DNA from: Candidatus Sumerlaeota bacterium
GTDB lineage: Bacteria; CG03; SLGR01
Length of the DNA: 11,813 nucleotides
Assembly (NCBI GenBank): GCA_007136585.1
Contig: SLGR01000116.1
Location: 1 to 11,813 of the forward strand
Reading direction: 5' to 3'
Shown: in pieces, positions 2,598 to 11,813 of the stretch
Numbering within the stretch: position 1 is the stretch's first letter
Layout: each line of letters begins with the position of its first letter
Notes under the pieces: model-generated
Seen by the model: the letters and a program-made list of their open reading frames with translations, nothing else
Told to the model about the DNA's origin: nothing
The model's database searches: none
Translations under genes and position numbers: made by a program

Positions 2598-4535
2598 TTG
2601 AAGTTGTCTTTACTTGGTAAGAGCTGCGGCGCGTTCTGTAGCCACTTGACGGGGTTTATTCTTCTTCAGGCGGCGGCAGCGCTGATAACGGCGGGTATTT
2701 TTACCCCGTCACACGCGTCGTGGTATATTCTAAACAGGGCTACCGCCTCCTGGGAGTTTGAGTCTGTAGGGCACACCCTGGTGTCAAACGAGGTCGCAAC
2801 CGCGTACGCGGCTGATAACCTGCTTCTGAACCCTTCTTTCGAGGAGCGGGAGGGAGAGGATGAGTGGAATCCGCTCCACTGGGACCTTGATGGAAATGTC
2901 TCAAGGGAAGAGTGGGAGCCCAGGAGCGGTGACTGGTCTCTGATGATTCAGGACTGGAATAGCGGAACCGGGTATGCCCACCAGTCAACCTCCGCTGTCT
3001 CAGGTTACGAGTATACGCTCAGCGTATGGGCTGTAAAAGAAGGAGCCCCGGAAGACGATGTCCCTCTTTATATGGAATTTGAATGGCTGGACGGAGACGC
3101 GCAGGTTATTGACTCCGTAAGAAAGGATATTCTTCCCCCGCTCAGGGAAGATGATGGAGGCCCCGGATGGTCCGAGTTTACGCTCTCATCGGCAGCCCCC
3201 GCCGGGACCGGGTATATCCGGGTGAAACTTGGCGGTGAGAACGTGGAGGAAGCCGGTTATTTTGACGATATCCTTCTTACGGAAAAAGCCCTCATCCCCG
3301 GGAGTGTATCCCTTGACTCGGATAATTACTACACGCTCTTTTCATCGGCGGTTATTACCGCTATTGATATTGATAGCAGCCTTAACCCTGGTGCCGAAGA
3401 TACGGTAAGCGTAAAGGTAACTTCGGATACTGACGATGACGGGTTTAATATCACGCTTCTTGAGACCTCCTCCGATACAGGTGTCTTTACCTCCACCGTA
3501 CCTTTAAGATTCTCTCTTGAGGAGTCCCTGCCCTCTGAGAGGGTGCTTAAGGTAAGGGACGGGGATACCGTGACCGCGGAGTATACCGACGCTTCCGGCG
3601 GGGTAAGGGTGTCAACGGCCGGGTTCCATAACATTGACAGGAGGGTAGGGGGGATATACGTTGAGGAGAACCCGCCAGGTGAGAGCGATTATATACGGGG
3701 AAGGACAAGGAGCGTAAACGCCAGCGTAAGCGTATATGTATATGATATTTACGGTTCAACTCTTGCGGAGCTTACCGCGGTTTCGGATGAGAACGGGGAG
3801 TTTGCGATAGACCTCGGGGATAACCGGAGTTTCGGGATGACCCCTGACCCGGATACCGGGCATGTGAGTTTCTACGTCGGAACCCGGGATACCGACCCCT
3901 CCGGCAGGATACTTGTCAGAAACGATATAAAGTGCGTTATACGTGAGGAAAAGATAAGGTTTGAATCGGTTCCCTGGGGAGAAGGGGTTGATTACCTTGT
4001 GGGGGAAGAGGGCGCTGTTGAGTCAGGGGCCGAGCTCCTTGAGTCTGTTCCTGGAGCCGGGGGGCAGGTAAGGACAATGGTGAAGGTGGAGGGAGAGACG
4101 GCGGCTGTGGAGCCTGACGGTAGTTTCAGGATAGCCGTGGGTGACAGGTACAGGAAACACGCCTCCGTGGAGGCTCTCTTCATAGATCCCGCTTACAATA
4201 CAGCAGGGGTTGAGGTCAGGAATACCACCAGGCGGAACCAGCTCCTTCAGAACGCGCCGAACCCTTTTGTTATAAGCAGGGACGATTTTACTGTAATAAG
4301 GTACGAGGTTGAGAGCGATACTCACGTTGAGATAGAGATTTATAACCTTGCGGGTGAGCTTATAAAGACGCTGGTGGATGAGTTCAGGCCGGCGGGGCAG
4401 CATATCGCCAGGTGGTACGGTGATAACGGCGGAGTGGGGGATAATACCGGAAGGACCGTCGGAAGCGGTGTTTACGTTTATGTCATAGAGGCCGGCGGGT
4501 TCAGGGAAAGCAGAAAGATAATAGTGGTGCGATGA
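2598..4535 (+). CDS. Secreted CBM/Ig-like protein with C-terminal FlgD-like (type IX-style sorting) domain
   Basis: Inferred to be exported across the inner membrane and then to the cell surface. The TTG start gives a long signal peptide (residues 1-40, ending PSHA/SW), and an in-frame TAG sits just upstream. Residues 75-228 are a CBM_4_9-like jelly roll nearly the same as that in gene 1. Residues 235-343 form an Ig-like domain with the LLETSSDTGVFTS and VRDGDTVTAEY motifs seen in S-layer-type beta repeats. Residues 348-545 look like one or two carboxypeptidase-regulatory/CnaB-like domains. Residues 548-645 begin with the QNAPNPF hallmark and continue with EIYNLAGELIKTL and GSGVYVYVIEAGG, the FlgD-like fold that ends type A sorting-domain proteins. 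No catalytic domain is visible. The stop overlaps the next start by four bases (ATGA), so this gene and the PorV-OmpA gene are probably co-translated. The product family is uncertain; the C-terminal domain is the firmest call. Confidence 0.75.
   Translation: MKLSLLGKSCGAFCSHLTGFILLQAAAALITAGIFTPSHASWYILNRATASWEFESVGHTLVSNEVATAYAADNLLLNPSFEEREGEDEWNPLHWDLDGNVSREEWEPRSGDWSLMIQDWNSGTGYAHQSTSAVSGYEYTLSVWAVKEGAPEDDVPLYMEFEWLDGDAQVIDSVRKDILPPLREDDGGPGWSEFTLSSAAPAGTGYIRVKLGGENVEEAGYFDDILLTEKALIPGSVSLDSDNYYTLFSSAVITAIDIDSSLNPGAEDTVSVKVTSDTDDDGFNITLLETSSDTGVFTSTVPLRFSLEESLPSERVLKVRDGDTVTAEYTDASGGVRVSTAGFHNIDRRVGGIYVEENPPGESDYIRGRTRSVNASVSVYVYDIYGSTLAELTAVSDENGEFAIDLGDNRSFGMTPDPDTGHVSFYVGTRDTDPSGRILVRNDIKCVIREEKIRFESVPWGEGVDYLVGEEGAVESGAELLESVPGAGGQVRTMVKVEGETAAVEPDGSFRIAVGDRYRKHASVEALFIDPAYNTAGVEVRNTTRRNQLLQNAPNPFVISRDDFTVIRYEVESDTHVEIEIYNLAGELIKTLVDEFRPAGQHIARWYGDNGGVGDNTGRTVGSGVYVYVIEAGGFRESRKIIVVR
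2820..3281 (+). repeat. Duplicated jelly-roll module, copy 2 (within gene 2)
   Basis: Encodes residues 75-228 of the second protein and is the partner of 1118-1597. The copies differ by small in-frame gaps (copy 2 is shorter in the EERE/EWNP area) but keep long identical DNA stretches at 3003-3031 and 3048-3073. Flanking domains in the two genes are unrelated, so a module rather than a whole gene was copied. Confidence 0.85.
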
Positions 4536-6316
4536 AGAGAAACTCCGGTACAATTTTAAACAGAGTCAAGGCGGCCGGTAAGATTTCGGCAGGGATCCTG
4601 GCTGCTCTTTTATTTTCCAGCGGCGTCTCCGCGGCGGGGATACACCGGAGGGCCGGTACGGCCTCCGCGGATATCCTCAAGCTCGGGGCCTGCGCCCGGT
4701 CGGCGGCGATGGGGGGAGCCTTCACCGCTGTGCCCGGGGATCTTTCGGGTTTTAATTTCAATACCGCCGGGGCCGGTTTCATAGACGAGCCGCTCGTTTC
4801 TTTTACCCATAATTACTGGATACAGGATACCGTTTACAATTACGCGGCCGGGGTATATCCTTTCAGTTTCGGGAACCTTGGTTTCAACCTCAGGATGTTT
4901 TCAATGGGGGATGATATTATGGAGACTGAGCTTGACCTCGGCACCTTCTCGCCGGTACCCACCGGGCGCACCCTTTCAGCTTACGATACGGCGCTGGGGA
5001 TAAATTATGCCCGGGATATCAGGATCCCGGGGTTCGCGGACAGGGTGAGCATCGGGGGGAGCGTTAATTATCTTCAGAGAAACCTTGCCGATTACGATGC
5101 CAGTTCGGTATTCGGGGACCTGGGGGTAATGTGGCTTCTTCAGCTTGACGGCAGAGAGTACAGCGCCGGGGTTTCCGTAAGGAATATAGGAACCCCGGTT
5201 GATTTCGGAAATGATAAGGAGCGGCTCCCCTACGAGTTCCGCGGAGGCGGCTCGGCCCTTTTTGTCTTTCCCGGAGGACATGCGGTGAGGCCTTCGCTGG
5301 ATATTGTCAGAAGAGCCGACAGCAGGGTAACGGCAAAAGCCGGAGCCGAGTATGATTACCTTGAGATGGTTTACCTGAGAGCCGGGTACAGGGTCTCGGA
5401 TAACCCGCACGGGAACTTCTCCTGCGGAGTGGGGGTAACTATTAAACCGTTCAGGATAGATTACGCCTGGGTTCCTTTCGGGGATATTTTCGGGGATACC
5501 CACCGGTTTACGCTCACGTGGCGTCTCCGGGAGGGGCTTATAAGGCTTTTTGCCAGAGCCCGGCTGGACGCACGGGTGGAGCTCCGTGATATGCCCCGGA
5601 ACCTGGACAGGGAGAATATGGCTGTTTTTACTGTATCTCCTTCCAGGGAGTCAAGGGGGAATATTAAAGACTGGGAGTTCAGGATAGAATCAGATGATAA
5701 GAGAGAGGTTTTCACTATATCCGGGGAAGACGATCCTCCGTCCCGGCTATACTGGGACGGCGACGATAACCGAGGGTACCCTGTCCCGGAAGGTAATTAT
5801 CACTACCATATGGTGCTGCGCAATATGGACGGAGAGGAGTTTGAGACAACTCCGGACTGGTTCAGGGTCTTTTACAGGACAGGGATAAAGACCCCCGAGG
5901 AGCGAATGGCGGCTTTGAGGGAGAGTGAGGATGTGGATGTTACAGAGGAAGAAGAGACGATAGAGTTCAGGATGGCTTCCCACCTGCTTTTTGATTTCGG
6001 AGAGTACGAGTTTGATCCCGATACCGCCGCGGTACTTCCTCTTATAGCCGATGCTCTAAATATTTACTCTGAGAGTGAGATTATTATTGAGGGACATACC
6101 GATAATATAGGCGATGAGGAGTTTAATTACGAGCTTTCCCGGCGGAGAGCCGATTTTGTCAGGGATACGCTGGTTGCTTTATACGGGGTATCCCCGGAGC
6201 GTATTGAGACAAAAGGGCGCGGCCCTTCCCGTCCGATAGCGGATAACGATACTCCCGAAGGTCGGGCCCGAAACAGGCGGGTTGAGATAATAATGAGGCG
6301 GGAACCTTCGGAATAA
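4532..6316 (+). CDS. PorV-like outer-membrane barrel fused to an OmpA peptidoglycan-binding domain
   Basis: Predicted outer-membrane protein anchored to the cell wall. The signal peptide is residues 1-35. Residues about 41-335 resemble the PorV/PorQ/UPF0164 barrel family: the mature start AGTASADILKLGACARSAAMGGAF is followed by many short amphipathic strands. Residues about 362-450 form an Ig/FlgD-like linker (LYWDGDDNRGYPVPEGNYHY matches the 'WDG-D-G-xxxPxGxY' pattern). Residues 480-590 are an OmpA C-terminal domain with GHTDNIG (521-527), LSRRRA (535-540) and NRRVEI. Asp524 and Arg539 occupy the positions known in OmpA to bind diaminopimelate of peptidoglycan. In type IX secretion PorV shuttles cargo to the surface attachment complex; the four-base overlap with a gene encoding a sorting-type C-terminus fits a cargo partnership, but that is inference. 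The OmpA call is near certain, the PorV-like barrel likely. Confidence 0.85.
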   Translation: MKRNSGTILNRVKAAGKISAGILAALLFSSGVSAAGIHRRAGTASADILKLGACARSAAMGGAFTAVPGDLSGFNFNTAGAGFIDEPLVSFTHNYWIQDTVYNYAAGVYPFSFGNLGFNLRMFSMGDDIMETELDLGTFSPVPTGRTLSAYDTALGINYARDIRIPGFADRVSIGGSVNYLQRNLADYDASSVFGDLGVMWLLQLDGREYSAGVSVRNIGTPVDFGNDKERLPYEFRGGGSALFVFPGGHAVRPSLDIVRRADSRVTAKAGAEYDYLEMVYLRAGYRVSDNPHGNFSCGVGVTIKPFRIDYAWVPFGDIFGDTHRFTLTWRLREGLIRLFARARLDARVELRDMPRNLDRENMAVFTVSPSRESRGNIKDWEFRIESDDKREVFTISGEDDPPSRLYWDGDDNRGYPVPEGNYHYHMVLRNMDGEEFETTPDWFRVFYRTGIKTPEERMAALRESEDVDVTEEEETIEFRMASHLLFDFGEYEFDPDTAAVLPLIADALNIYSESEIIIEGHTDNIGDEEFNYELSRRRADFVRDTLVALYGVSPERIETKGRGPSRPIADNDTPEGRARNRRVEIIMRREPSE

Positions 6317-6673: not shown

Positions 6674-7627
6674 ATGATAAAAAAGTTCTTATTGCTTGCA
6701 ATTTTTTTCGTTCTTTCATCGGTAAGCGGTTATGCCGCTTCTGAAATAGCGGTGATTGTTAATATAACCGAACGAATGGATTCCGCCCAGCATAAGGATA
6801 CCCTTGAAGGTTTCAAAAGCATCCTAACTGAGAGGGGGGTGAGTTTTACCACGACTTTTTACAACCTGGCGGGGCCAAAGAGCGGTGATGAAATAATCTC
6901 AGATATAGCCGGGGCCGGGCCTGATCTTGTGCTTCCGCTGGGGACTTCCCCTACAAGGCTTGCCGTGGAGAATATTACAGACCTTCCTGTTGTTTTTTCA
7001 ATGGTTCTCAATCCGATTGAACACGGTTTTGTCTCAAGCCTGGATAGGCCGGGAGGTAATGTTACGGGAGTATCACTGAATATACCGGCTTCGGAGCAAT
7101 TTAGTCTTATAAAAGATGCCGTTTCCGGAATTGAGAAGGCGGGGGTTATATATGACCCTTCCATTTCGGGAAAAGTTGTTGAATCAGCAAGAGCGGCAGC
7201 CCCCGGGCTTGGGATTGAACTGATAGAGAAACCCATAAGCGAGGCCGGGGAGATATCCGGGGCCCTTACCAGCCTCAGGCGTGAAGGGGCGGAGCTGATA
7301 TGGGCTATTCCCGACAGTACTGTGTATTCCGGCGCTTCTGTCCGTCAGGTGCTGCTTTTCAGTCTCCGGAACGCGGTGCCCGTGGCCGGGTTCTCAAGAA
7401 GTTTTGCAGAGGCCGGTGCCCTGATCGGCATATACCAGGATTACAGGGATATAGGCAGGCAGACCGGCGAGGTTGCGGTAAAGGTCATTCAGGGCCAGGA
7501 CCCCGGGAGTATTCCGGTGGCATTTCCAAGGAAACAGGTTTTTTCTCTCAATCAGCGGGTAATGGATAATTTCGGGCTGGATGTAAACAGCGGACTTCTC
7601 GAAGAAGCGGAGCATATATTCAGGTAA
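6674..7627 (+). CDS. Periplasmic substrate-binding protein, ABC_sub_bind (PF04392) type
   Basis: Predicted soluble periplasmic protein that captures a small ligand. The start has a strong AAAGGAG (6659-6665) eight bases upstream. Residues 1-22 are a signal peptide ending GYAA; there is no lipobox cysteine, so it is probably not a lipoprotein. The mature part follows the family pattern: a first lobe with [12 protein letters not shown] (86-97), then [17 protein letters not shown] (104-120) and [10 protein letters not shown] (125-134), and a second lobe with AGVIYDPS and [10 protein letters not shown]. At 317 residues it is full length for the family. No permease or ATPase gene is adjacent; 35 bases downstream is a transmembrane chemoreceptor. 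This suggests a sensory co-receptor role, as for the NspS-MbaA and LuxP-LuxQ pairs, rather than uptake. Family members have been tied to amino acids or other small organics, but the ligand cannot be read from the sequence. Confidence 0.85.
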
Positions 7628-7662
7628 AAAAGGAAGCAGCGTTAAAAAAGGAGCTTCATAAA

Positions 7663-9927
7663 ATGTTGGAAAAGTTAAACCTTAAGAATCTTTTAGGCGC
7701 CGGTCTGAGGTTCAAGGCTACGGCCTTTATAACGGTGGTTGTAATTATAGTTGCCGCTGTACTTTCAGGGTACTTTATAACCCATCAGAGGAACCAGGCT
7801 TACCAGGAGCTTCAGAGGCGCGGTGTATCGCTTACGAAGAACCTCGCGTATAACAGCGAGTACGGGGTTCTTATATCCAGTGAGGACGAACTGAATAACT
7901 TCATTAACGCTCTTGCAGAAGAGGATGATTTTGTCTATGTGATAATTCAGGATGAAGAAGGTGATATTATAGCTTCAACAAAGACGGGGCTGGAGGAGAA
8001 TGTGCTCTCAAAGGTCCGGGAACAGGAAGAGCCGACTGAAGTAATAGAAGATGCGGTTATACACACTCTGGGGACTGACAGGTGGGGCTCTGTTTTTGAT
8101 ATTGCCTATCCCATAGTCACCAGGAGCCGTGAGACCGATATACTGGGGTTTGAGATAGATACCGGGCCGGAGGATGTTCGTGTGATAGGTTCGGCCAGGG
8201 TTGGCATAACCTTGAGGGATGTGGAGCAGATGGTGATGAGGAACAGTGTGAATATAATTCTTATCACAGTGCTTATCATCATTATAGCCGGGTTCCTGAC
8301 AAGTTTCTCGGTAGGAAAACTTTTTATGGAAACGCTTAATCAGCTTGTACTGGCCGCGGAGGCCATCGGGCGCGGCGAACTGAAGGGAACCTTGAAGTTA
8401 AAGGCTTCAAAAGATGAGTTCGGGCAGCTGGCCGTCGCTTTTAAGAATATGCAGTCACAGCTTTCAATAATGGCTGAGCAGGCCCAGGCCCTTGCCGATG
8501 ACGACCTGCAGAACGAGATACTCAACGAGAAAGTGCAGGGTGACCTGGGAGACGCTTTCTTTACAATGGTAAATAACCTCAGGGGGTTTGCAGAGATAGC
8601 TGAGCTAATAAGCAAGGATAATATATATCACGATCATATAAACCGGTTTATTGAACAAAATGCCGATAGTACCGGTTCAAAACGCGGAATACTTACCGTT
8701 TCTTTCCTGAATATGCTTACGATGATAAAGAAAACAGTATCCCAGGCTGAGATAATAGCCAACGACGACCTGTATAACGAGAAGCTTACTACGGAGGATA
8801 AGGGAAACCTTGGCGGGGCTTTCTCCGAGATGGTGAGAAAACTGAGGAACCTGGCCAAACAGGCTGAGTATATCGCGGAAGGCGACCTGCGTAATAAGGC
8901 CCTCTCTGAAAAGGGGACCGGCACGCTCAGCGCTGCGTTTGCGAGTATGGTGGTAAGCCTAAGAAAGCTTTCTGAGCAGGCTGATGCCATAGCGGAGGGT
9001 AACCTGCGGGCACCGATACTCAGGGAGAAGATCCAGGGTGACCTCGGCAACGCTTTCAATAAAATGGCGGATAACCTCAGAAAGCTTATCGGAAGCGTGC
9101 AGGAAGTTGCCCTTCATGTAAGCAAATCCGCCAACGAAACCCTTGAATCAAGCCGGAAATTGCTTACCGGGGCCAAAAAACAGACTGAGAAAGCTGAGGA
9201 GTCCTCAACAGCCGTTATGGAGATGACAAGTTCCATACAGGAAGTATCCACAAACGCGGTCAACGCGGAGAAAAAATCCAATCAGGCCAGTCAGGCCTCT
9301 TCTAAAGGGGTAAAAGTAGTAAAGGATACCGTTGAAAGTCTCAGCGAGATAACATCCAATGTTGACGAGGTCGCTTCCAGAATGAGCGAACTGGAGAAAG
9401 GCTCCAGGGAGATAGGGAAGATCGTAAACGCTATATCGGAAATTTCAGAGCAGACCAACCTTCTTGCCCTGAATGCGACCATAGAGGCGGCAAGAACCGG
9501 AGAGGCCGGAAAGGGGTTTGCGGTTGTTGCAGATGAGGTCAAGAAACTTGCCGAGCGGAGCGCCTCGAGCGCAAAAGAGATAGCCTCCATAATCAAGAAT
9601 ATTCAGGAAGATATGAATATCACCATGGACGCTATGGGGAAAAACAAGGAAAGCACGGCAAAGGCTGTTTCTGTTTCCAGCTCTCTGGACGAAACTTTTA
9701 AATCAATACAGGATATAATTAAAGACACAAAGTTGAGTATTGATGAGATAACCACAGCCATGAGGGAGCAGGAGACTGCCAGCGCTAACATAGAGGTGTC
9801 TGTGAATTCCATTAAGGAGGTTATACAGGAGTCCGAAGCGGCAAGCGAAAAAATGACCTCACAGGCGCAGAAAGTCAACCAGATAACCAAGGACCTTCAG
9901 GCTATGCTGCAGAAATTCAACGTTTAG
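7663..9927 (+). CDS. Transmembrane methyl-accepting chemotaxis protein with a poly-HAMP stack
   Basis: Inner-membrane chemoreceptor. AAGGAG (7648-7653) lies nine bases before the ATG. TM1 is residues about 19-40 and TM2 about 195-219. The periplasmic part (41-194) resembles CHASE8-like sensor domains ([15 protein letters not shown], then a [15 protein letters not shown] strand). A normal HAMP (222-272) is followed by further HAMP-type units at about 273-309, 311-357 (divergent), 361-398, 400-437 and 439-475. Four of these share a 'QA-x-x-IA-x-x-DL' helix start and an 'LG-x-AF-x-x-M' second helix. The cytoplasmic coiled coil (480-754) has the conserved hairpin tip [19 protein letters not shown] (593-611) that binds CheA and CheW. 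There is no C-terminal CheR-binding pentapeptide. The upstream binding protein is its likely periplasmic partner. Receptor identity is near certain, the ligand unknown. Confidence 0.95.
8326..9087 (+). repeat. Region encoding tandem HAMP-type repeats
   Basis: Codes for residues 222-475 of the transmembrane receptor. The repeat unit is about 38-40 residues, and related DNA recurs, for example around GGTGACCT at 8539-8546 and 9037-9044, each followed by a similar CTTTC-containing stretch. The third unit is longer and poorly conserved, so the array probably grew by duplication and has since diverged. Confidence 0.7.
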
Positions 9928-9960
9928 GATAACTGAGAGCCGGACTGTTTAGGTGTAATA

Positions 9961-9966
9961 AAGGAG
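9961..9966 (+). promoter_or_regulatory. Ribosome binding site at unusually long spacing
   Basis: AAGGAG is the only good Shine-Dalgarno site before the soluble receptor, yet it lies 14 bases from the ATG at 9981. No better-spaced ATG, GTG or TTG is in frame between them, so the ATG is kept as the start. Confidence 0.5.
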
Positions 9967-9980
9967 ACCTGTAAATCAAT

Positions 9981-11249
9981 ATGGCCGGAGATATTATAAC
10001 CAAACTTAGATCAAAAATAGAAGAGCTGGAGATTGAAAACCAGGGGTTAAAAGCGAAGTTAAGCGAAAAAGAGGCTTCCGCGGAGCGGGTATCTTCTGTT
10101 ATTTCCGGCTACAACGAAACTCTTATAAGACTTGCGAACGGAGATACCGCGGCGCGGGTTAATACCGATACAGCTACGGAAGCCCTTTATTCCCTGGGAA
10201 AAATGATAAATAAGACTGCGGTAATGATGGGTGAGATTTCGGAAAACGCGGAGGTTGTGCAGAACGAGCTGGAAAAGAAACTTGAGTATATGAAAAGGGT
10301 GGAAATGGGGGATCTTACCGTTCTGGCCAAAGAGGATTCTCCCAATGAATCAATCGCCCAGCTTGGGCGCTCCATAAACGCCACTATTTCCGGTTTTACT
10401 GAGATTTTAAAGAAAATAAAGGCAAGTTCCTTTGCGATAGAAAGTTCTTCTTCGGAGATACTCTCGGCTACCGGCCAGCTTGCGAGCGGGCTTGCCCAGG
10501 AAGCCTCAAGTTTAGCAGAGACCACTTCCACGTTTGAGGAGCTTTCCAAGACCGCCGGCGAGATCGCAAGAAGCGCGTCTGAAGTTAAAAATTATGCTGA
10601 AAGCACGCTGGAAAGCACCAACCAGGGAAATAAACAGGTAGCCGAAAGCGTAAAAAGCATGCAGGATATTGAGGAAGTATCAAAGAAATCCGCCCAGATA
10701 ATAGTAACCCTAAGCGAAAAATCCCAGGCTATAAATGAGATTATTGAGATTATAAACGATATAGCCAAGCAGACAAACCTGCTTGCTTTAAACGCATCAA
10801 TCGAAGCGGCCAGGGCAGGTGAGTCGGGGAAAGGTTTTTCCGTTGTGGCAAGTGAGGTGGGGAAACTCGCTGAAAACGTCAAGGATTCAGCCGGAAGTAT
10901 AAGGGAACTTATAAACGAGATACAGTCACTTACCTCTTCATCAATAATGACAATGGAAGAGGTTGGGAATAAAATATCTATCGGGAAAAACGTTACACAG
11001 AAGATCAGCGAAAAATTAAACCAGATACTTGATATGGTCCAGGAGACCACTCAGCTTTCAAAGGAGATCACACTCGCCACACAGCAGCAGCAGACCGCAA
11101 CAGAACAGGCAACAAGGGCTATTGAAGAGGTCAACGAAGTCTCGCGTCAGTCCTCTGTCAGTTCACGGCAGACATCAAGCACAGCGGAGGATCTGAACAA
11201 GCTCGCGCAGGAACTTGAAGAACATATAGGAAAGTATAAATTCACCTGA
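9981..11249 (+). CDS. Soluble (cytoplasmic) methyl-accepting chemotaxis protein
   Basis: Cytoplasmic chemoreceptor-like signalling protein: no signal peptide or membrane segment is present. Residues 1-38 are a charged coiled coil ([15 protein letters not shown]). Residues about 39-88 and 98-146 are two HAMP-like units ([10 protein letters not shown] and [10 protein letters not shown] mark the connector starts). Residues 147-422 form the MCP signalling coiled coil with the hairpin tip [21 protein letters not shown] (260-280) and candidate methylation sites rich in Glu and Gln (around 364-386). The arm after the tip arginine is 144 residues against 143 in the upstream receptor, so the two are probably the same length class and could share one array. 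It lies 53 bases after that receptor and 53 before cheA. Without a sensor domain it may read the cytoplasmic state or act as an array partner. No CheR-binding tail is seen. Confidence 0.93.
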
Positions 11250-11302
11250 TTCCGCTACCGGGTTGCAGGGTTGAAAAATAATAGAGAACGGAAGTATTAA
11301 CA

Positions 11303-11813
11303 ATGGATGAAAATCTTTTAAAAATTTTCAGGCCGGAGGCAAAAGAGTACCTACAGAAGCTCAATGAGAACCTTCTTATTCTGGAAAAAGAACCGGATAA
11401 CGGAGAGGTTCTTGAGGAACTTCTCCGCGTAACCCATTCACTCAAGGGAACGGCGGCTATGGTGGGGTTTGCCGAGATAGCGGAGCTGGCCCACAAGGCG
11501 GAAGATGTCCTGAATGCCGTACAGGAACACGGGGTAGAGGATATGTCAGAGATAACCCCGGCGCTGTTTCTGAGTTTTGATACCATAGAACAGATCCTTG
11601 GCGGGGAAGAGACCGACATAGATGATATAGTAGGAGATTTAAAGGAAATAGCTTCTTTAATTTCCGGGGACGGGGGCTCCGGTGAGGCTGAAGATGATAC
11701 AGGCAAGGGGGAGAAGGGGAAAGAACCGGACAAAGCCAAAAAAGAGGAGCCACAGCAGGAAGAGGAAGAAGAGGAAGAAGAGAAAGAAGAAGAGCGGGCG
11801 GAAAAACCCCGAA
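11303..11813 (+). CDS. cheA: Chemotaxis histidine kinase CheA, N-terminal part (runs off the window)
   Basis: The central kinase of the chemosensory pathway; only the first 170 codons are present and the frame is open to the window edge. The ATG has a modest GGAAG (11290-11294) eight bases upstream. Residues 1-115 form an HPt (P1) domain with RVTHSLKGTAAMVGF; His45 is the predicted phosphorylation site, followed by the family's typical AELAHKAEDVL helix. From about residue 122 comes a low-complexity linker rich in Glu, Lys and Gly, with a run of eight glutamates, as expected between P1 and P2. The dimerisation, ATPase and CheW-like domains would lie downstream. Position right after two receptors supports CheA over another HPt-bearing hybrid kinase. 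Confidence 0.85.
   Translation, partial: MDENLLKIFRPEAKEYLQKLNENLLILEKEPDNGEVLEELLRVTHSLKGTAAMVGFAEIAELAHKAEDVLNAVQEHGVEDMSEITPALFLSFDTIEQILGGEETDIDDIVGDLKEIASLISGDGGSGEAEDDTGKGEKGKEPDKAKKEEPQQEEEEEEEEKEEERAEKPR

Follow-up and report, generated by a model that had tools for sequence, protein, structure and literature searches.

The type IX secretion system (T9SS) has been described as confined to the Bacteroidota, and possibly some other phyla of the Fibrobacteres-Chlorobi-Bacteroidetes (FCB) group, and as absent elsewhere (PMC11285876). All type-A cargo is said to use a single carrier, PorV (PMC12618676), and in Flavobacterium the C-terminal domain (CTD) of the cargo attaches to three loops of PorV within the SprA pore, and the two exit sideways together (PMC10994853). 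Type-B cargo has a dedicated PorP/SprF-like carrier, which is encoded directly downstream and thought to remain bound (PMC12618676). A protein with an OmpA domain, PorE, binds PorP (PMC9143113). Here we analyse a stretch of 11,813 nucleotides, contig SLGR01000116.1 of assembly GCA_007136585.1, which we refer to as the window. It comes from an uncultured Candidatus Sumerlaeota bacterium, a relative of the Elusimicrobia, in which a single gene at positions 4532 to 6316 joins an outer-membrane barrel of the carrier type to a cell-wall hook.

The predicted barrel resembles PorV of the Porphyromonas and Flavobacterium T9SS in being a 14-strand FadL-type barrel with PorV as its best structural match, and type-A CTD cargo is encoded in the genome. 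Classical PorV, however, is one shared carrier with no periplasmic extension, whereas here there are about 30 paralogues, mostly beside their own cargo, and that of the window carries an OmpA domain. As with PorP/SprF and type-B CTD cargo, the carrier gene lies directly 3' of the cargo gene, the pairs are dedicated and holding at the surface is proposed. In contrast to PorP/SprF, the fusion has no PorP_SprF match (PF11751 is absent from its Pfam matches up to E 0.1) and the cargo tail fits the type-A model TIGR04183. PorE likewise has an OmpA domain with an Asp/Asn/Arg triad and links a cargo-holding barrel to peptidoglycan, as the fusion would do, but it is a lipoprotein of its own that also has TPR, propeller and CRD domains, whereas here the hook sits within the barrel protein. 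The OmpA and OprF porins also combine an outer-membrane barrel, in their case of 8 strands, with a C-terminal peptidoglycan-binding domain, but show no cargo pairing. BamG, of the β-barrel assembly machinery (BAM) complex of Bacteroidota, is a further FadL-type barrel of 14 strands, recruited to its complex to bind proteins; it differs in its partners, in having no described OmpA domain and in matching less well than PorV.

On balance we consider it probable that the fusion is a dedicated wall-anchored carrier of the PorV type, which retains the cargo of the upstream gene on the cell surface. The parts of the locus that bear on this are the following, with the evidence for each.

2598 to 4535, forward strand: putative cargo protein of 645 residues, containing a carbohydrate-binding-like module and ending in a type-A sorting domain; the start codon is uncertain
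4257 to 4526, forward strand: cargo sorting tail, residues 554-643 matched by TIGR04183; C-terminus ..SRKIIVVR, with Lys at -6
4532 to 4535, forward strand: ATGA, 4-base-pair overlap of cargo stop and carrier start, from the coordinates of the open reading frames (ORFs)
4532 to 6316, forward strand: PorV-family barrel, Ig linker and OmpA fusion protein, an ORF of 594 residues, from profile matches and an AlphaFold2 model
4532 to 4636, forward strand: apparent signal peptide, residues 1-35, read from the sequence; helix 6-29 in the AlphaFold2 model
4652 to 5536, forward strand: PorV-like barrel with N-terminal plug helices, residues 41-335, from NF033709, AlphaFold2 and the structural match to PorV
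5621 to 5869, forward strand: FlgD-type Ig-like linker, residues about 364-446, from a weak profile match, strands in the model and homologous fusions
5987 to 6277, forward strand: OmpA peptidoglycan-binding domain, residues 486-582, with Asp524, Asn532 and Arg539, from PF00691 and the match to OprF

An earlier note, made from the letters of this DNA, had claimed a signal peptide and a PorV/UPF0164-type N-terminal region, and both claims hold. An apparent signal peptide is present by eye, with a basic start, a hydrophobic stretch and VSA-AG near residue 34. The PorV/PorQ family profile NF033709 matches residues 44-331 at E 7e-44, with 150.7 bits against a cut-off of 90, and the UPF0164 profile matches at E 3.7e-9. 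The narrower PorV equivalog model, NF033710, gave 55.5 bits, under its cut-off of 250, and we therefore regard the fusion as a PorV-family protein and not as a PorV orthologue by this model.

The upstream protein is putative type-A cargo: TIGR04183, the model of the type-A T9SS sorting domain, matched it with 32.5 bits against a cut-off of 23. Its tail was also recovered, at E 1.9e-18, by a tail model trained without it. A conserved lysine has been reported in the last strand of type-A CTDs (PMC11285876); all 27 tails tabulated from the genome end in Arg or Lys, and 22 of them have Lys or Arg at -6. A structure model of the cargo built from the single sequence reached a predicted local distance difference test score (pLDDT) of 35 and gives no view of the putative Ig fold of the tail.

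The earlier note had missed that the genome encodes some 30 PorV paralogues and that almost every one is paired with tail-bearing cargo. Genome-wide statements here rest on family searches and on the stretches retrieved from them. We found 31 PorV-family matches in the genome of the window, 30 of which were examined with their surroundings, and 28 of these 30 lie directly behind a tail-bearing gene on the same strand (the exceptions are L074 and L079). The commonest spacing within the pairs is the 4-base-pair overlap also seen in the window. TIGR04183 gave 25 sorting-tail matches in this genome, and the cross-validated tail model recovered 27 of 27 tails. In other genomes 47 of 63 PorV genes were paired with a tail-bearing gene, against 6 of 381 unrelated background genes with a tail. 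Because there are about 30 paralogues, nearly all paired, the fusion would be a dedicated carrier, unlike the single PorV of the classical system.

The two halves of the pairs have also diverged together. Within the genome, tail distances correlated with barrel distances (Mantel rho 0.46, p<=0.0005, n 25), and nearest neighbours agreed between tails and barrels 7-8 times where about 1 was expected. The nearest tail and the nearest barrel to those of the window belong to one and the same pair, in genome G007 of the same order, and this pair is itself a PorV-OmpA fusion. These comparisons show a stable pairing of tails and barrels.

At the other end of the protein, PF00691 matched the OmpA domain at E 1.6e-22 (80.1 bits, cut-off 27.2), and the nearest solved domain is that of OprF (5u1h, E 1.7e-23). 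The C-termini of FadL-type barrels are periplasmic, so the OmpA domain would face the wall. Asp524 and Arg539, which the earlier note had placed in this domain, are indeed there, and together with Asn532 they are invariant across 8 aligned fusions. In the crystal structure of PorE, Asp576, Asn584 and Arg591 bind diaminopimelate (PMC7192894), and the spacing of the three residues in the fusion equals that in PorE. As judged from sequence, the domain carries the diaminopimelate ligands, and it would probably bind peptidoglycan in the cell and tether the barrel to it, as had been proposed.

Alternatively, the protein might mainly be a general tether between outer membrane and wall, doing the work of OmpA or Pal, with the barrel only a membrane seat and the cargo incidental. 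The fusion is the sole PF00691 match in the genome of the window and may therefore be the main wall anchor present. The genome is incomplete, however, which may explain the lone match, and the genomes of relatives encode short OmpA-domain proteins, some in tandem, besides their fusions. In this genome the other barrels of the family likewise have a tailed cargo partner, and most of them carry no wall-binding domain. We consider a general tether unlikely.

The domain order that the earlier note described recurs in related genomes, with nine PorV-OmpA fusions in 8 of the 16 genomes of the phylum. The linkers vary: some consist of Ig modules, others of a short acidic stretch or an insert of the CsgG/FlgO-TPR type. 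On a tree built from 58 barrels the OmpA label has to change four times, and strong branches force at least two of these changes; a single clade, and with it a single origin, of the OmpA fusions was rejected on this tree (p 1e-35, approximately unbiased test). Among the other PorV-like barrels are some with TPR repeats or a LysM-like domain at the C-terminus, and eight of the barrels measured (that of the window counted once) reach more than 30 residues past the barrel.

Several of these proteins deserve separate mention. In the genome of the window, the gene at 1417-2703 of L054 (G000:C151) encodes a PorV-like barrel with a C-terminal LysM-like domain (20.7 bits, cut-off 20.9), which would be another type of hook from a carrier to the wall; it too lies behind a tailed gene. 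Proteins of about 800 residues, at 1244-3655 of L085, 1825-4206 of L086 and 2124-4535 of L087, have a PorV-like barrel and an OmpA domain, together with TPR regions and regions resembling FlgO/CsgG. In L084, L090, L092, L093, L094 and L095 an OmpA-domain gene is followed by one for a protein of about 240 residues with PASTA-like repeats, recognised by eye. In this recurring cluster some of the OmpA-domain proteins have a barrel and some consist of Ig and OmpA domains only.

A candidate sov homologue, one of the companions named in the earlier note, was found: the genome of the window has one SprA/Sov-like ORF of about 1,700 residues. A profile built from five SprA-like proteins had SprA as its only match in the PDB (E 2.6e-20). 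SprA matches were present in 15 of the 16 genomes of the phylum examined, and SprA-like matches in 23 of 25 named genomes from the Elusimicrobia, Endomicrobium, WOR-3, KSB1, Marinimicrobia, Poribacteria, Aerophobetes and others. Many of these 23 lie outside the FCB phyla usual for the T9SS. With 25 sorting tails and an SprA/Sov-like candidate translocon in the genome of the window, the fusion architecture did not turn out to be one common in genomes that have no sorting-domain proteins.

The PorU-type C25 peptidase (PF01364) had no match in 8 genomes of the order, that of the window being 88% complete, while 4 of 4 outgroup genomes matched. Models of GldL, GldM and GldN found nothing significant in any genome searched, those with full-length SprA included; this search consequently lacked a positive control and is no evidence of absence, and PorK was not searched. 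The earlier proposal of a type IX attachment machinery is unsupported as far as attachment of the PorU kind is concerned.

As no PorU-type peptidase was detected in the order to cut the tail, the simplest reading is that the cargo is kept on its own carrier. It is conceivable that the cargo is instead handed over and then released, with the OmpA domain only keeping the carrier near the SprA-like pore as an anchored secretion station. It has been proposed that Flavobacterium PorV is reused once it has delivered type-A cargo (PMC12618676), and PorE is believed to be what anchors the T9SS to the wall (PMC7192894). Yet one carrier per cargo suits stoichiometric retention better than recycling, as has been argued for type-B pairs (PMC12618676), and the C25 peptidase that could free the cargo was not found in the order, which makes release distinctly unlikely.

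The structure of the barrel agrees with its assignment to the PorV family. The AlphaFold2 model of the fusion protein has a mean pLDDT of 79 and shows exactly 14 long barrel strands between residues 88 and 331, mostly at a pLDDT of 85-98; residues 364-446 form a further module of strands, and the OmpA domain takes an OmpA fold. In the PDB, Foldseek ranked highest two PorV chains from the translocon of Flavobacterium johnsoniae, 8gl6_F (E 9e-16) and 6h3i_F. Alignment with VIA-align gave Z 34.4 over 288 residues at 4.9 A for 8gl6_F and Z 33.6 over 281 residues at 3.3 A for 6h3i_F, while FadL and its relatives reached at most Z 29.3 and BamG about 26. A profile of the 34-sequence alignment used for the model matched PorV 6h3i_F at E 2.9e-39, with TodX far behind. 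In the model, then, residues 41-335 form a 14-strand barrel of the PorV/FadL type that is nearer PorV than FadL, and a 14-strand barrel is what the earlier note had named as support for its claim. That the protein is a wall-anchored FadL-like transporter of hydrophobic small molecules, fed by its tailed neighbours as surface proteins, is highly improbable. A FadL-like fold (Z 29) and weak matches of TodX-type profiles speak for it, but PorV matches better in both sequence and structure, and neither near-universal tail pairing nor an SprA-like pore would be expected of FadL transporters.

For the wall-anchored carrier that we favour, we infer the secretion route, the binding of tail to barrel, the retention of the cargo and the binding of the wall in the cell as follows. 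The cargo would be exported by Sec and would then cross the outer membrane through the single SprA/Sov-like pore. Its putative Ig-like tail would bind its own PorV-type barrel at the loops outside the cell, as tails do with PorV in Flavobacterium, and the cargo would remain on the barrel as a surface protein. The periplasmic OmpA domain would fix the barrel to diaminopimelate in the peptidoglycan. One chain may thus do what PorP and PorE do together for type-B cargo in Bacteroidota.

A number of observations weigh against this interpretation. The SprA-like protein is shorter than SprA, and its match to TIGR04189 (E 1e-53, 182.1 bits) falls just under the curated cut-off of 200. The release of Flavobacterium PorV requires an input of energy (PMC10994853), and no motor component was found here with the GldL, GldM and GldN models. 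The correlated divergence of tails and barrels could also have arisen if gene pairs were duplicated jointly, with no specific binding involved. The genome of the window is a metagenome-assembled genome, 88% complete, and the alignment behind the AlphaFold2 model consists mostly of sequences without an OmpA domain. The Ig linker claimed in the earlier note stands in part: in this protein FlgD_ig matched residues 383-428 at E 0.01 with 16 bits, below its cut-off of 27, whereas in homologous fusions the linker is above or near the cut-off (46 bits in one), and the model has a strand module in its place.

The surroundings of the pair were also inspected. The gene at 14-2440 and the cargo gene at 2598-4535 each encode a long carbohydrate-binding-like module, some 150 residues in length, and the two copies closely resemble each other; the former gene also encodes a DUF11 domain and has no sorting tail. 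Downstream of the fusion, positions 6674-11812 of the window hold a chemosensory group, consisting of an ATP-binding cassette (ABC) substrate-binding protein, two chemoreceptor-like proteins and an Hpt-domain protein with a CheA-like start.

Taken more widely, the window may belong to a divergent type IX-like system outside the FCB phyla, a suggestion that we make tentatively. In such a system about 30 cargo-carrier pairs would replace the shared carrier and the PorU sortase, each carrier would remain as the lasting anchor of its cargo on the surface, and wall-binding domains (OmpA, possibly LysM) would have been joined to them more than once. Type-A-like tails, an SprA-like pore and PorV-like carriers are found here in Elusimicrobia-related bacteria, with one cargo per carrier. 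This one-cargo-one-carrier layout is known in Bacteroidota for type-B cargo and PorP/SprF, and is unreported for type-A tails in the open-access literature. The fusions would open to direct test how cargo stays on the surface without a sortase, and the roughly 30 tail-barrel pairs per genome would give ready material for working out the code by which tails are recognised specifically.

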